64,000 nucleotides of DNA from an uncultured Clostridia bacterium (lineage in GTDB: Bacteria; Bacillota; Clostridia; Oscillospirales; Acutalibacteraceae): contig CAMVEX010000001.1 of the NCBI GenBank assembly GCA_947166625.1, positions 1 to 64,000 of the forward strand, in the 5' to 3' direction. The position numbers and the translations under genes are program-made. A model generated the notes under the pieces. It ran no database searches, had not been told where the DNA came from, and worked only from the letters and a program-made list of their open reading frames with translations. Position 1 is the first letter of the stretch; every line of letters begins with the position of its first letter. Positions 6,721-13,551 of the stretch are shown here, piece after piece.

Positions 6721-7428
6721 TCAACCGAAAACTCTCTTCATCATTTCGTTGTAAGCATCTTCCACTCCGCCGAGATCTCTGCGGAAGCGGTCTTTATCAA
6801 GCTTCTCATTGGTATTTATATCCCAGAAGCGGCAGGTATCGGGCGAAATTTCATCCGCGAGGACTATGGTGCCGTCGCTGAGTCTGCCGAATTCAAGCTT
6901 GAAATCTATAAGACGAACGCCGAGGCTCTTGAAATACTCTTTGAGTATATCATTCACTTTGAAAGCGAGATTCTTAATGGTTTCGATCTCTGCTTTTGAA
7001 GCAAGGCCGAGCGCGAAAGCATGATAAGAATTGATGAGAGGATCGCCGAGATCATCATTCTTATACGAAAATTCAATAGTCGGCTCCGGGAAGGTGATGC
7101 CCTCCTCTACGCCGTAATTCTTGGCGAATGAACCGGCGGAAACATTCCTGATAATGACCTCAAGAGGAACGATAGCAACCTTTTTTACAAGAGTTTCACG
7201 GTCGCTGAGTTCCTCAACGAAATGGGTGGGAACACCGTTCTTTTCAAGAATCTGCATGAGATAATTTGACATCTTATTATTAACGACGCCCTTGCCGGAT
7301 ATAGTCCCCTTTTTAAGACCGTTGAACGCGGTGGCATCATCTTTATAAGAGACGATGTAGAGCTCGGGATCATCGGTGGCAAATACTTTTTTTGCCTTGC
7401 CTTCATAAAGCTGATTGAGTTTTTCCAT
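6721..7428 (-). CDS. purC: SAICAR synthetase
   Basis: Phosphoribosylaminoimidazole-succinocarboxamide synthase, which joins aspartate to CAIR in purine synthesis. The 235-residue length is normal. Family motifs are [10 protein letters not shown] at the N terminus (ATP loop), [10 protein letters not shown], and LIDFKLEFG followed by [23 protein letters not shown] precedes the ATG. It is the last gene of the argF–carA–carB run, 45 bases after carB. No other purine gene is near, so its link to the arginine/carbamoyl phosphate genes is probably only operonic. Confidence 0.95.
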
Positions 7429-7473: not shown

Positions 7474-10400
7474 TTAATACTCAAATTCTCCGGTAAACGC
7501 TATAACGGCGTTTCCTGTGAGGGTGATCTTTTCATCGGTATAATTGACTATCATATCGCCGCCGGTAAGCTTGACGGTAATATCCTTGCCCTTTTCGCAA
7601 TAACCCGCTTCGCAGGCGGCAACTACCGCAGCGCAGGCTCCGGTGCCGCAGGCAAGGGTGGCTCCGTTTCCGCGCTCCCACACTCTCGCGCGGATGCAGT
7701 TTTTATTGACGATCCTGACAAATTCGGTATTTACTCTGTGGGGGAAGGCTTCGTTATACTCGAATTTGGGGCCTACAGAGGCTAAATCGAGCCCTTCGGT
7801 TTCATCGCATATTGTAACGAAATGAGGGTTGCCGACATTGACGCAGGTGCCGAAATAATCCTTACCGTCAACCGTTACCTTCTTATTTGATTCGGTTATT
7901 TGAGCCTTGCCTATCTCGACCCTCGCGGCGCTTACCTTGCCGTCTCTGAGATAAACCTTGACTCTGTTGACGCCACTCGGAGTTTCAACGGAGATGTTTT
8001 CGCTGCGGATATAGCCGTTATCATAGAGATATTTCGCAACGCATCTGAGATTGTTGCCGGCGAGCTTGCCTTCGGAGCCGTCTTTATTGAAGGTACGCAT
8101 TTTAACATCTGCTTTGCTTGACTTTTCAAGAAGGACAAGTCCGTCGCTTCCGACGCTGTAATGCTGCTTGCAGAGATTTACACAGAGAGATTCGGGGCAG
8201 GTAATGTTGCCGTCAAAATTCTCAATGAAAATATAATCGTTGCCGCAGGACTGCATCTTGGTAAATTTGATCTGCCTCTTCCAGGGACGCATATTATTGA
8301 TATCGACAAGCTCTGTATTGACCGGAGTATATCCGCTCTCTATAATATCCGCAAGGGCGTTTGCCGTATCAAGCGAGGTGAGGCAGGGAATCTCAAGCTG
8401 CATCGCGCGGCGATGAAGGCTCGTATAATCCCCTATCGTTTCATCCTGCACCGCACCGGTATAAATGATATAGTTGATTTCTCCGGATTCAAGCACTTTG
8501 AAGATATCCGCGGCTTCGACCGCAGTAACGGGGATGCCCGAATCGGCGATGGCCTTCGCGGTGCCGGTCGTGGCAAACATCCTGATCTGCATATCATAGA
8601 AACGCTTTGCGATCGAAATCGCTTCCTGATAATCGTTATCCTCAACGCTTATGAGCACTGCGGGATCGAATTCGGTACGCGAGGGAACGGAGAAGCCGGC
8701 TGCGGTAAGCCCCTTGAAGAGAGCTTCGGCGGTCGTTTTGCCGATACCGAGGACCTCACCGGTCGATTTCATTTCGGGGCCGAGAATGGAATTGGCATCC
8801 ATCAGCTTCTCAAACGAGAATACGGGCACCTTAACAGCGTAATAAGGCGGAGTCCTATAAAGGCCTTTGCCGTAGCCGAGGGTCGAGAGCTTCGCTCCGA
8901 GCATAACCTTGGAAGCGAGATCAACCATTGGAACATTCGTGACCTTGCTGATATAGGGAACGGTCCTTGACGCTCTGGGATTGACTTCAATTACATAGAG
9001 CTCATTATTATAGATAAGATACTGGATATTTACAAGGCCCTGAGTGCCGAGAGCAAGGGCGAGTTTTTCGGAGCAATCGCAAATCTTTTCGAGGAAATAA
9101 TCATTGAGATTATAGGGCGGATAAACGGCTATGGAGTCGCCGCTGTGAATGCCGGCGCGCTCTATATGCTCCATTATACCGGGAATGAGTACATCTTTAC
9201 CATCCGATATGACATCGACCTCAAGCTCGATGCCGGGCATATATTTATCAATAAGAACGGGATTGTCAATGCCGCCGGCAAGGATCCTTCTCATATAAGC
9301 TTCGGTCTGCTCGTCATTATATGAAATTGTCATATTCTGACCGCCGATAACATAAGAAGGTCTGAGCAAAACGGGGTAACCGAGGCCCTCTGCCGCGGCA
9401 AAGGCTTCCTCAAGAGTATTGACGCCCATTCCCTTGGGTCTGCGGATACCGAACTGCTCAAGCAGAGCATCGAATTTTGCCCTGTCTTCGGCAACATCTA
9501 TACTCTGAGCGGAGGTGCCGAGAATTCTGATGCCGTTATCATCAAGGAACTGAGTGAGCTTGATAGCTGTCTGACCGCCGAAAGCCACAACAACACCGAT
9601 GGGATTTTCGACCTTGATGATGTTCATTACATCTTCGGGTGAAAGAGGCTCGAAATAGAGTCTGTCCGCAGTATCATAGTCGGTTGAAACAGTTTCGGGG
9701 TTATTATTGACTATAACTACCTCATAGCCCATCTCGCGCAGGGTCCATACGCAGTGTACCGATGAATAATCGAATTCGATACCCTGACCGATCCTTATGG
9801 GACCCGAACCGAGGACCATGACAACGGGCTTTCCGCTTCTCGGGAAATTACGCGCTTCGCAATAACCGCCTGCAACCGAATAGAAATAAGGGGTGACGGC
9901 GTCAAATTCGGCGGCGCAGGTATCGACCATCTTATAGCTGAAATCGCAGGAAGGAAGCTCCTTTGCTCCGCTGAGTCTCTTGATGGCGGTATCCGTATAT
10001 CCGAGGCGCTTTGCCTGCTCATAATCGCCCTCACCGAGACCGTTTGCTATCTTCGCTTCAAAATCGGCAAGGTTTTTGAGACGGTTTATAAACAGAGTGT
10101 CGATCTTGGTGATCGCGTTTATCTGCTCGGGAGTCCATCCCTTTTTAAGGGCTTCAAAAACGGTAAACAGCCTGCGGTCATCCTGCCTCGCAAGGCGCTC
10201 TTCAAGCGGAGCATCATCAAGCGGCTCGGCATTGAGAGTATCAAGAGAGATCTCCGCTCCCCTGACCGCTTTCATTATCGCCGCCTCAAAGCTTCTGCCG
10301 ATAGCCATAACCTCACCGGTAGCCTTCATCTGAGTTCCGAGCTTTCTTGAGGAGCCTGCGAATTTATCAAACGGCCACTTCGGGAATTTGACTACAACAT

Positions 10401-11463
10401 AGTCAATGGTGGGCTCAAAGCAAGCCGAGGTCTTTGCGGTAATATCATTCTTGACCTCATCGAGATTGTAACCGAGGGCAAGTCTGGTAGTCATCTTCGC
10501 TATAGGATAACCCGTTGCCTTGGAGGCGAGCGCGGAGGAACGCGAAACTCTGGGGTTAACCTCGATAACGGCATATTCAAAACTGTCGGGATTGAGAGCG
10601 AACTGACAGTTACAGCCGCCGACTATGCCTATAGACGAAACTATATCGAGAGAAGCATTCGCGAGCATTTTATATTCTTTAGCCGCAAGGGTGAGAGCCG
10701 GAGCGGCAACGATAGAATCGCCCGTGTGGATACCGACGGGATCAACATTTTCCATAGAGCAAACGATAATGGCGTTACCCGCGGCATCGCGCATTGTTTC
10801 AAACTCTATCTCTTTCCAGCCGGAAATACACTTCTCAACGAGGATCTGGGTAATGGGAGACATATCGAGACCGGTTCTCGCTATAACTTTAAGCTCTTCG
10901 GGATTATCGGCGATTCCGCCGCCTGTGCCGCCGAGAGTAAACGCGGGGCGGACTATGACAGGATAACCGATCTCATCTGCGATCCTGAGAGCATTCTCAA
11001 CATCATTACAGGTATCCGAAGGCACGCAGGGCTGACCGATCTCAGCCATAGTTTCACGAAACAACTCGCGGTCCTCCGCCTTGTCGATCCCGTCAATCCC
11101 GGTACCGAGCAGACGCACGCCGTATTTTTGAAGAGTACCGTCGCGTGTGAGCTGCATGGCGATGGTAAGCCCCGTTTGACCGCCGAGACCTGCAAGAAGC
11201 CCGTCCGGCCTTTCTTTGGCGATGATCCTGCGAACGGTCTTTGCGTTAAGCGGCTCAAGATAGATCTCATCGGCAAGATGCTTATCCGTCATAATGGTGG
11301 CGGGGTTGGAGTTTACGAGGACAACATTTATGCCTTCATCGCGAAGGACTCTGCACGCCTGCGCTCCGGCATAGTCAAATTCGGCAGCCTGGCCTATAAC
11401 TATAGGACCCGAGCCGATAACAAGCACTTTATGAATATTCTTATCCTTAGGCACCCTTTTCAC
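7474..11463 (-). CDS. carB: Carbamoyl phosphate synthase large subunit fused to a DapF-like domain
   Basis: A 1329-residue fusion. Residues 1 to about 1062 are CarB, with two ATP-grasp halves (VLVIGSGPIVIGQAAEFDY and VMVLGSGPIRIGQGIEFDY) and a C-terminal MGS-type regulatory domain near 930-1050. It makes carbamoyl phosphate from bicarbonate, ATP and ammonia. From residue 1063 follows a whole diaminopimelate epimerase domain (about 267 residues), starting IKFTKMQSCGNDYIF. Its second catalytic Cys is present in ACGTGACA (Cys1272), but the first active-site motif reads KLAGNNLRC, with Ala1135 where the family has Cys. No stop or frameshift separates the parts. The start is GTG, inside the end of carA (17-base overlap). 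The CarB half should be active; epimerase activity is doubtful. Confidence 0.93.
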   Translation of the reverse strand: MKRVPKDKNIHKVLVIGSGPIVIGQAAEFDYAGAQACRVLRDEGINVVLVNSNPATIMTDKHLADEIYLEPLNAKTVRRIIAKERPDGLLAGLGGQTGLTIAMQLTRDGTLQKYGVRLLGTGIDGIDKAEDRELFRETMAEIGQPCVPSDTCNDVENALRIADEIGYPVIVRPAFTLGGTGGGIADNPEELKVIARTGLDMSPITQILVEKCISGWKEIEFETMRDAAGNAIIVCSMENVDPVGIHTGDSIVAAPALTLAAKEYKMLANASLDIVSSIGIVGGCNCQFALNPDSFEYAVIEVNPRVSRSSALASKATGYPIAKMTTRLALGYNLDEVKNDITAKTSACFEPTIDYVVVKFPKWPFDKFAGSSRKLGTQMKATGEVMAIGRSFEAAIMKAVRGAEISLDTLNAEPLDDAPLEERLARQDDRRLFTVFEALKKGWTPEQINAITKIDTLFINRLKNLADFEAKIANGLGEGDYEQAKRLGYTDTAIKRLSGAKELPSCDFSYKMVDTCAAEFDAVTPYFYSVAGGYCEARNFPRSGKPVVMVLGSGPIRIGQGIEFDYSSVHCVWTLREMGYEVVIVNNNPETVSTDYDTADRLYFEPLSPEDVMNIIKVENPIGVVVAFGGQTAIKLTQFLDDNGIRILGTSAQSIDVAEDRAKFDALLEQFGIRRPKGMGVNTLEEAFAAAEGLGYPVLLRPSYVIGGQNMTISYNDEQTEAYMRRILAGGIDNPVLIDKYMPGIELEVDVISDGKDVLIPGIMEHIERAGIHSGDSIAVYPPYNLNDYFLEKICDCSEKLALALGTQGLVNIQYLIYNNELYVIEVNPRASRTVPYISKVTNVPMVDLASKVMLGAKLSTLGYGKGLYRTPPYYAVKVPVFSFEKLMDANSILGPEMKSTGEVLGIGKTTAEALFKGLTAAGFSVPSRTEFDPAVLISVEDNDYQEAISIAKRFYDMQIRMFATTGTAKAIADSGIPVTAVEAADIFKVLESGEINYIIYTGAVQDETIGDYTSLHRRAMQLEIPCLTSLDTANALADIIESGYTPVNTELVDINNMRPWKRQIKFTKMQSCGNDYIFIENFDGNITCPESLCVNLCKQHYSVGSDGLVLLEKSSKADVKMRTFNKDGSEGKLAGNNLRCVAKYLYDNGYIRSENISVETPSGVNRVKVYLRDGKVSAARVEIGKAQITESNKKVTVDGKDYFGTCVNVGNPHFVTICDETEGLDLASVGPKFEYNEAFPHRVNTEFVRIVNKNCIRARVWERGNGATLACGTGACAAVVAACEAGYCEKGKDITVKLTGGDMIVNYTDEKITLTGNAVIAFTGEFEY

Positions 11464-12517
11464 CGCCCATCATATCAATAAATTTTGAGAATAATCCTTC
11501 GCTGTCTCTCCCGTCGGAGCAGGCTTCGGGGATGAACTGCACCGTGAAGCATTTGAGCATTGTATATTCAAGCCCGGCGCAGGTGCCGTCATTGGCATTG
11601 ATAAAAGTCTGCCTTGCGACGCCGACAAGAGAATCCGGCTGGACGGCATATCCGTGATTCTGAACGGATATATATGTACGGTTACCGCTCAGATCGGTAA
11701 CGGGCTGATTGGCACCGCGGTGGCCGTAGCCGAGCTTATAGGTCTTGCCCCCCATGGCGAGAGCGGCAAGCTGATGACCGAGCGAGATACCGAAAATCGG
11801 TTTTTTACCCATAAGCTTTGAAATCTGCTCAATACAGAATTTATTATCAGCCGGGTCGCCCGGGCCGTTTGAGAGAAGGATACCGTCGGGGTCGGCGGCG
11901 AGGATATCCTGCGCAGGGGTATCATAAGGATATGAAACCACATTGCAGCCACGCTCATTAAGGCATTTAATGAAATCTTTCTTATCGCCGTAATCTATCA
12001 GGGCGACATTGTATTTCGTTTCGCCGTCGCATGGATAATTCTCGACTTCACCGCTTGATACGGCGGCAACCGCATTCTCGATTTTATACTCTTTGACAGC
12101 GGTGAGATCGGAGGGAACTTCACTGCATATCATAGCGTTCATAACACCCTGCTCGCGGATTATCCTTGTGATCTGACGGGTGTCAACTCCGCAGATACCG
12201 CAGATCCCGTTATCCTCGAGATATTTCTCAAGCGGATAATCACAGCGGAAATTGGAGGGAGTGGAGCAGATCTCGCTGACAACATAGCCGCTGAGAGCCG
12301 GTTTAAGCGAAAGATCCTCCTCAATGATCCCGTAGTTTCCTATGAGCGGAAAAGTCTGCATAACAATCTGCCCTGCATAACACGGATCGGTGAGTGTTTC
12401 GGGGTAGCCTACAACGCCCGTGGTAAACACAAGCTCACCGATACTGTCATGAGAAGCGCCTATTGCGGTGCCTTCAAAGACATCGCCGTTGCTCAATACC
12501 AAATACGCTTTACTCAT
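11447..12517 (-). CDS. carA: Carbamoyl phosphate synthase small subunit with a disrupted glutaminase site
   Basis: CarA normally releases ammonia from glutamine and passes it to CarB. The 356-residue protein is full length, with the N-terminal CarA domain (to about residue 150) and a class I amidotransferase domain. The oxyanion region (LLSNGPGDP) is normal. The nucleophile motif, normally G-x-C-L-G-H-Q, reads GISLGHQ with Ser245 (codon TCG at 11783-11785). The catalytic His motif, normally HPEA, reads IPEA with Ile329 (codon ATC at 11531-11533); Glu331 remains. Both changes remove glutaminase chemistry, so the complex should depend on free ammonia, as in animal CPS I, which also has Ser at this position. 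It sits between argF and carB. Confidence 0.95.
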   Translation of the reverse strand: MSKAYLVLSNGDVFEGTAIGASHDSIGELVFTTGVVGYPETLTDPCYAGQIVMQTFPLIGNYGIIEEDLSLKPALSGYVVSEICSTPSNFRCDYPLEKYLEDNGICGICGVDTRQITRIIREQGVMNAMICSEVPSDLTAVKEYKIENAVAAVSSGEVENYPCDGETKYNVALIDYGDKKDFIKCLNERGCNVVSYPYDTPAQDILAADPDGILLSNGPGDPADNKFCIEQISKLMGKKPIFGISLGHQLAALAMGGKTYKLGYGHRGANQPVTDLSGNRTYISVQNHGYAVQPDSLVGVARQTFINANDGTCAGLEYTMLKCFTVQFIPEACSDGRDSEGLFSKFIDMMGGEKGA

Positions 12518-12564: not shown

Positions 12565-13551
12565 TCAGAGAGTAGCCGCCATGACCGCTTTGATCGTGTG
12601 CATACGGTTTTCAGCCTCGTCAAAGACGATTGATCTCTCGCTTTCAAACACATCGTCGGTGACTTCAAGACCGTCAATGCAGAATTTTTCATATATCTCT
12701 CTGCCGACCTCGGTCTTGAGATCGTGATAGGCGGGAAGACAATGCATAAATCTGACATTCTCCCCTGCCGCCTCCATAAGCGCGGCATTTACCTGATAAG
12801 GCTTCAGAGCCTCGATCCTTTCTTTCCAGACCTCCTCGGGCTCGCCCATTGACACCCAGACATCGGTATAAATAACATCGGCGTCTTTAACGGCTTCATA
12901 AGGGTCGGTAATAAAACTCACCGAAGCGCCGCTTTCAGAAGCGAGCTTTTTGCACTCATCGACAAGGCGTGTCTCGGGGAAATACTCAACCGGAGCGCAG
13001 GCGGTGAAATTCATACCCATCTTGGCGCAGCCGACCATAAGGGAATTGCCCATATTATATCTCGCATCGCCCATATAAACGAGCTTGATGCCCTTAAGTC
13101 TGCCGAAATGCTCCTTGATAGTGAGAAAATCGGCAAGTATCTGCGTGGGATGGAATTCATTTGTAAGCCCGTTCCACACCGGAACATCGGAATACTTCGC
13201 GAGCTCCTCGACAACAGCCTGGCCGAAGCCTCTGTATTCAATGCCGTCAAACATTCTTGAAAGGACTCTCGCGGTATCGGCTATGCTTTCCTTCTTGCCT
13301 ATCTGGGAGCTTTTGGGATCGAGATAGACGGGATGCATCCCGAGATCTGCCGCCGCGACTTCAAAAGAGCAACGGGTCCTGGTACTTGTCTTTTCAAAAA
13401 TAAGGGCTATGTTTTTACCCTCGTGAAGCTTATGAGGTATGCCGTTCTTTTTCTTTTCTTTAAGCTCCGCCGCAAGATCGAGAAGATATTCTATCTCTTC
13501 AGACGAAAAATCAAGGAGCTTGAGAAAATCTCTGTTTTTCAGTGTTACCAT
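12565..13551 (-). CDS. argF: Ornithine carbamoyltransferase
   Basis: Transfers the carbamoyl group from carbamoyl phosphate to ornithine, giving citrulline for arginine synthesis. The 328-residue protein has the carbamoyl phosphate motif [11 protein letters not shown], the HPTQ motif, and the ornithine-binding [19 protein letters not shown] precedes the ATG. It is the first gene of an argF–carA–carB–purC run, so carbamoyl phosphate made by the next two genes would feed this enzyme. A strong promoter embedded in A/T-rich repeats lies upstream. No pyrB is in the window. Confidence 0.95.

Follow-up and report, generated by a model that had tools for sequence, protein, structure and literature searches.

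A carbamoyl-phosphate synthase of Clostridia that probably uses ammonia and retains a glutaminase-like small subunit

Which nitrogen donor serves a bacterial carbamoyl-phosphate synthase when its small subunit no longer carries the residues that split glutamine? The question is raised by an operon in the window, the stretch of 64,000 nucleotides of Clostridia DNA analyzed here, in which CarA and CarB lie between genes for ornithine carbamoyltransferase and PurC. The features concerned are:

12565..13551, minus strand: ornithine carbamoyltransferase, directly upstream of the window CarA on the same strand
11447..12517, minus strand: CarA, carbamoyl-phosphate synthase small subunit, 356 residues, with an impaired glutaminase site
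12380..12382, minus strand: Cys46, replacing E. coli Ser47 (PDB alignment)
11783..11785, minus strand: TCG codon, Ser245, replacing the nucleophile Cys, E. coli C269 (codon reading and PDB alignment)
11531..11533, minus strand: ATC codon, Ile329, replacing the catalytic His, E. coli H353 (codon reading and PDB alignment)
11525..11527, minus strand: Glu331, the retained triad member, E. coli E355 (codon reading and PDB alignment)
11510..11515, minus strand: Asp335-Gly336, replacing tunnel-wall Gly359-Pro360 in E. coli numbering (PDB alignment)
7474..11463, minus strand: fusion protein with the large subunit CarB in residues 1 to about 1043 and diaminopimelate epimerase DapF in residues 1065-1327
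6721..7428, minus strand: PurC, directly downstream of CarB-DapF on the same strand

Read on the minus strand, the nucleophile motif of the window CarA is ggt-atc-tcg-ctc-ggt-cat-cag (G-I-S-L-G-H-Q) and the histidine motif is cag-ttc-atc-ccc-gaa-gcc (Q-F-I-P-E-A). Codons and PDB alignment thus agree with an earlier, sequence-only reading of this locus, which had reported Ser245 and Ile329 with Glu331 kept; the alignment places these three residues at the positions of the Cys-His-Glu triad. That reading had also called the protein otherwise intact, which does not hold for two further sites: Ser47, which we take to be a glutamine-binding residue in E. coli CarA, is replaced by Cys46, and Gly359-Pro360 by Asp335-Gly336. 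Over its whole length the protein matches TIGR01368 with 385 bits, above the curated cut-off of 307, and its predicted structure is a confident full-length fold. A visibly disordered tunnel loop was considered and dropped, since model confidence at residues 331-340 was 64 for the window CarA and 71 for an intact relative, values too close to tell apart. CarB has both ATP-grasp sites with their catalytic residues retained, and the two subunits are separate frames that overlap by 17 bases at their listed starts.

The DapF part of the CarB fusion is apparently complete, with both Cys motifs present. Of the tree rows, 132 have a CarB frame no shorter than 1000 residues, and in 114 of them it is longer than the 1250 residues that correspond to the fusion; in several genomes the DapF fused to CarB is the only one found. 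The 114 include Baileyella intestinalis (L053), and the Peptacetobacter CarB (L103) is unfused. No report of the fusion was found in the open-access literature searched, a search outside which most subscription papers fall.

We collected CarA from relatives through a genus search, a scan of named genomes (the best 80 of 156 relatives) and a family search (30 loci and 80 further stretches used), which gave 223 loci and 212 distinct proteins, a 160-residue fragment (L036) being excluded. Aligned at the positions of E. coli Cys269 and His353, as the sequence-only reading had proposed, 177 of the 212 have Cys-His-Glu, 32 are impaired and 3 end before the His; the sample leans toward close relatives, and these proportions are therefore not a prevalence. 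The nucleophile position of the impaired proteins holds Gly in 24, Ser in 5 and the original Cys in 3; all three triad residues are lost in 13, two in 14 and one in 5. Other sites change as well. The tunnel wall is altered at Gly359 or Pro360, by substitution or deletion, in 25 of the 32 impaired CarA and in 0 of 177 intact ones, all 177 of which read Gly-Pro, and Ser47 is kept in only 5 of 32 as against 176 of 177 (the remaining one has a gap). Pocket residues are largely kept in the impaired proteins (Gly241 and Gly243 in 32/32, Asn311 in 31/32, Gln273 in 29/32), and this conservation of a putative glutamine pocket would not be predicted by plain decay.

Eight of the 80 named-genome loci are impaired, and the titles of 6 of these name ruminant hindgut samples. 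Such titles are common among intact-CarA genomes too, and the argument from gut ammonia made in the earlier reading is weak because relatives with intact CarA also come from guts. A phylum-wide pattern search for the Gly form matched 80 of 398 genomes; it was abandoned, as a reversed control pattern also matched in some and 28 of the 30 loci opened had no CarA match. The other two (L280 in G561, L263 in G368) are CarA with Gly for Cys from two other families of the phylum. We met no description of a bacterial CarA that naturally lacks its glutaminase in the open-access literature searched, which leaves most subscription papers outside its range.

Recurrence of the change was counted on trees of CarB, because a CarA tree would be built from the decaying protein itself. 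With FastTree (200 rows), 16 changes at the Cys position are needed and 13 are forced by starred branches. An IQ-TREE mixture-model tree of 105 chosen rows (29 impaired and 76 others, the long row L034 excluded) requires 15, with a bootstrap range of 15-16 and 12 forced by starred branches. Placing the 27 Cys-less rows in one clade was rejected (p-AU 1e-99) by a test that expects such a group to be fixed in advance, and this one was defined by Cys state and not by the tree, and the CarB tree thus rules out a single ancient change. The Cys has been altered at least 12 times within one enzyme clade, with 15 as the best count. Counting changes cannot by itself separate loss from regain; concurrent changes at other sites lead us to regard them as losses. 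One such change is common to the window and an independent genome (L015, which has the protein also seen as L045), and L013 and L014, two sisters with intact CarA, stand next to them.

The search for other sources of carbamoyl phosphate covered 26 genomes that carry an impaired CarA and 22 controls, 48 in all, assembled in tens to hundreds of contigs, so that an absent gene may mean an absent contig. A second CarA is present in 7 of the 26, the window's genome included, and has an intact triad in the 6 of these that were opened (G045 is the seventh). A single CarA N-domain was found in the other 19, or 18 once G193 is removed; this genome has two similar, non-identical CarA tails on two contigs (L245 and L195), one at the end of contig 108, which represent either a further copy or a mixture of strains. 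Completeness of at least 90% with contamination of no more than 5% is reached by 13 of the 19, and 11 of these lack the Cys, ten without G193. Each of the ten (G190, G204, G230, G157, G109, G200, G152, G254, G131 and G197) is at least 95% complete and has a single CarB, and all have aspartate carbamoyltransferase and ArgG (argininosuccinate synthase) above cut-offs. Carbamate kinase (TIGR00746) exceeded its cut-off in 0 of the 26 impaired-CarA genomes, the ten included, and in 2 of the 22 others; the cut-off is strict, and weaker partial matches of up to 40 bits are common (47 of 48 genomes, counting the two that pass). On this result a carbamate-kinase route was discarded for all 26. An extra glutaminase gene beside CarA was likewise set aside, since visual inspection of the open reading frames of 110 residues or more at 12 impaired-CarA loci revealed none. 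Since the only CarA found is Cys-less, no carbamate kinase passes the cut-off and both carbamoyl-phosphate-linked enzymes are present, free ammonia offers the simplest account of the nitrogen supply, and arginine and pyrimidine synthesis in these ten genomes seem to rest on a synthase without glutaminase. The proposal of the sequence-only reading that glutamine hydrolysis is lost and ammonia used gains support from these ten good genomes, from the intact synthetase half and from the selection that maintains the small subunit (see below), and is the best reading.

The window's own genome, in 49 contigs, does contain the second, intact CarA for which that reading had suggested a search. It lies with a CarB on contig 17 (L042), and the cell could therefore manage without the ammonia enzyme. 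The same island carries GuaA, an NADP-glutamate dehydrogenase, an ANTAR-domain regulator, glutamine synthetase, AsnB and PyrG; in G307, a related cluster (L248) includes PurF with its Cys as well. GuaA, PyrG and a HisH-like protein of the window's genome keep their Cys. The contig 17 cluster looks like a nitrogen-shortage island, which would make the window operon its likely ammonia-rich counterpart in a presumed division of labor.

Changes extend to other nitrogen-transfer enzymes. Two of them were typed by frame length and span rather than by family scan. All 12 controls have a GuaA-type protein, as does 1 (G197) of the 11 single-CarA genomes including G193; a PyrG-type protein likewise occurs in all 12 controls, where that of G140 is incomplete at a contig end, and in 0 of the 11. 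The GMP synthase of G254 consists of just the 326-residue synthetase part and lacks a glutaminase domain (L362:5141-6121), and G317 has the same form (L241:7452-8432). A PurF that starts MGGFFG, with Gly in place of the N-terminal Cys, occurs in purine gene clusters of seven genomes (G000, G254, G152, G080, G330, G015 and G317), from a TTG start in G080. In the window's genome (G000) it lies on contig 9 (L044:11976-13400) and scores 157 bits, below the cut-off of 350, yet it sits between purE and purM. Several observations count against a total switch: the Cys motif of PurL is kept in G000, G254 and G317, HisH-like and AsnB-type proteins of G254 keep theirs, two genomes with Cys-less PurF (G330 and G015) have intact CarA, and no PyrG was found in the portion of G254 that was read, about 1.39 of 1.7 Mb. 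In G080, G333, G330 and G015 CarB comes after the dihydroorotase gene without an intervening CarA, and in three of the four a family scan places dihydroorotate dehydrogenase genes on the other side of that CarB. Pyrimidine gene clusters with CarB and without CarA were seen at loci L234, L235, L236 and L238.

Could the impaired CarA be a decaying remnant without a role, beside a CarB that works alone? The pyrimidine-operon CarB genes without an adjacent CarA would suit such an account, as would evolutionary rates: the median CarA:CarB dN ratio is 4.45 for 8 Cys-less pairs as against 2.05 for 18 intact ones (one-sided p 0.005), while the dN ratio of glutaminase domain to N-domain is 2.18 versus 1.21 (p 0.006), which places the excess in the glutaminase domain; some proteins enter more than one pair, and 12 mixed pairs were left out. 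Against it, all 8 pairs of Cys-less CarA have dN/dS of 0.04-0.16 (some dS values being near saturation), none of the 32 impaired frames has a premature stop (the one flagged, in L222, is the normal end), and the window CarA is predicted to fold over its full length. Purifying selection on the whole together with a faster glutaminase domain indicates that the subunit is kept and its catalytic domain freed, and we consider a functionless remnant very unlikely. The suggestion in the sequence-only reading that CarA persists as a structural or regulatory partner is favored by this selection on the small subunit. Catalytic residues of the first half of CarB are kept in 28 of 29 readable impaired rows (the exception is L034) and 169 of 169 others, and those of the second half in 20 of 20 and 119 of 119; these counts come from alignment, as motif regular expressions were too strict and short loci can align to the wrong half. 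The exceptional genome (G011; L034/L243) has CarAB in a pyrimidine cluster with both halves degenerate (CarB R129T and N301D) and a lone CarB elsewhere (L242). Residual glutaminase activity with Ser245 as the nucleophile has in its favor that Ser serves in this way in other hydrolases. The impaired proteins speak strongly against it, with Gly at this position in most, Ser in few and the whole triad gone in 13 of 32, and there is hardly any likelihood left for it. Human CPS1, with Ser at the same place, cannot use glutamine, according to the text available from PMC4655335. A sequencing or assembly error might be suspected in a genome of 49 contigs. The independent genome that shares the window's change has the same Ser and Ile in a CarA only 69% identical, and Gly359, Pro360 and Ser47 change in concert; the shared residues therefore rule out such an error, to which we give practically no weight.

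The main rival is supply of glutamine nitrogen in trans, with the intact CarA of a second operon or another glutaminase docking on a CarB of the window type. The intact second CarA in the window's genome might pair with the window CarB, and in G130 and G215 an extra CarA with intact triad stands beside a free DapF and PyrG with no adjacent CarB (L181 and L188, genus g87). The other CarA of these two genomes is impaired, as if the lone intact copy were kept to serve in trans. Arguing the other way, no second CarA was found in 18 of the 26 impaired-CarA genomes, and class I amidotransferases, the only class searched, gave 1-4 matches in the ten single-CarA genomes (3 in G193) versus 4-7 in 12 controls, so no replacement glutaminase is evident. 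Because the operon retains the impaired CarA and selection still acts on it, this subunit presumably occupies the docking face of CarB. Taken together, supply in trans is unlikely, if less so than the other alternatives.

We conclude that the carbamoyl-phosphate synthase encoded in the window very probably uses ammonia and serves the arginine branch, given that the Cys and His of the triad are lost, the ATP-grasp sites of CarB are kept and ornithine carbamoyltransferase is adjacent. Free ammonia would enter CarB directly or through the opened tunnel wall and be converted there to carbamate and then carbamoyl phosphate, while CarA may remain as a structural or regulatory partner. The available part of PMC4655335 describes precedents: E. 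coli variants with a blocked or perforated glutamine tunnel have no glutamine activity and work normally with external ammonia, which can enter the E. coli and human enzymes without that tunnel. The window CarAB and the contig 17 CarAB would probably serve ammonia-rich and ammonia-poor conditions, respectively. Where a relative has no second CarA, the ammonia enzyme would supply arginine and pyrimidine synthesis alike, and such organisms probably make arginine and nucleotides from free ammonia.

More tentatively, in a reading slightly less likely than not, these Clostridia may keep two enzyme wardrobes: a housekeeping 'ammonia set' that has shed its glutaminases and an island 'glutamine set' for ammonia shortage. 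The former would comprise triad-less CarA, glutaminase-less GMP synthase, PurF with Gly for Cys and the CarA-less CarB of pyrimidine operons; the latter, CarAB, GuaA, PyrG, AsnB and, in one relative, PurF, near glutamine synthetase, glutamate dehydrogenase and the ANTAR regulator. Species without the island would then be obligate ammonia users, and the retained CarA pocket might detect glutamine but not hydrolyze it. A need for ammonia even in the presence of amino acids is seen in some gut and rumen bacteria, and the enzymes described here offer a possible molecular reason. The recurrent losses also provide natural replicates of the dismantling of a glutaminase and its ammonia tunnel.

Textbooks describe an ammonia-specific carbamoyl-phosphate synthase as part of the urea cycle of animals. 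What appears new here, judging by sequence, is a bacterial, repeatedly evolved counterpart that retains a pseudo-glutaminase subunit; the same kind of change as in CPS I has occurred in bacteria at least 12 times, and in some species the product is seemingly the sole source of carbamoyl phosphate. In human CPS1 (PDB 5dot/5dou), as set out in the accessible portions of PMC4655335 and PMC6022934, Ser replaces the nucleophile Cys, an inactive glutaminase-like domain is kept, ammonia is used and ornithine carbamoyltransferase is fed. The window enzyme resembles it in having Ser for Cys and a retained domain that is predicted to be inactive, and it would likewise use ammonia and feed ornithine carbamoyltransferase. 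It differs in having also lost the His and the tunnel-wall Gly-Pro, and in being a two-subunit bacterial enzyme with CarB fused to DapF, whereas animal CPS I is a single mitochondrial chain that requires N-acetylglutamate. Not being one chain, it is not a member of CPS I, although it would work like one. From bacterial CPS II, exemplified by E. coli CarAB, it is set apart by the failed glutaminase triad and the loss of Gly359-Pro360. The natural substitutions hit the same two places as the E. coli CarA laboratory mutants C269S (1c30) and G359F (1m6v), but those were engineered singly, while the changes in Clostridia are natural, combined and recurrent. Convergent shifts from glutamine to ammonia are described in the available text of PMC7657897 for fish CPS III turned ammonia-preferring (Alcolapia) and for frog CPS I; there the triad is kept and glutamine-binding residues are altered, whereas in Clostridia the triad is lost and most binding residues are kept. 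Among prokaryotes, the 41 kDa CPS of the gut species Methanobrevibacter smithii consists of synthetase units, a dimer of one short synthetase for which the accessible portion of PMC6022934 describes no small subunit, and would thus be free of glutaminase; the window enzyme, in contrast, has CarA. For Blochmannia vafer CarAB the authors propose ammonia use in vivo when glutamine is short, and the part of PMC3017870 available mentions no loss of the glutaminase site, the very loss that marks the window CarA.
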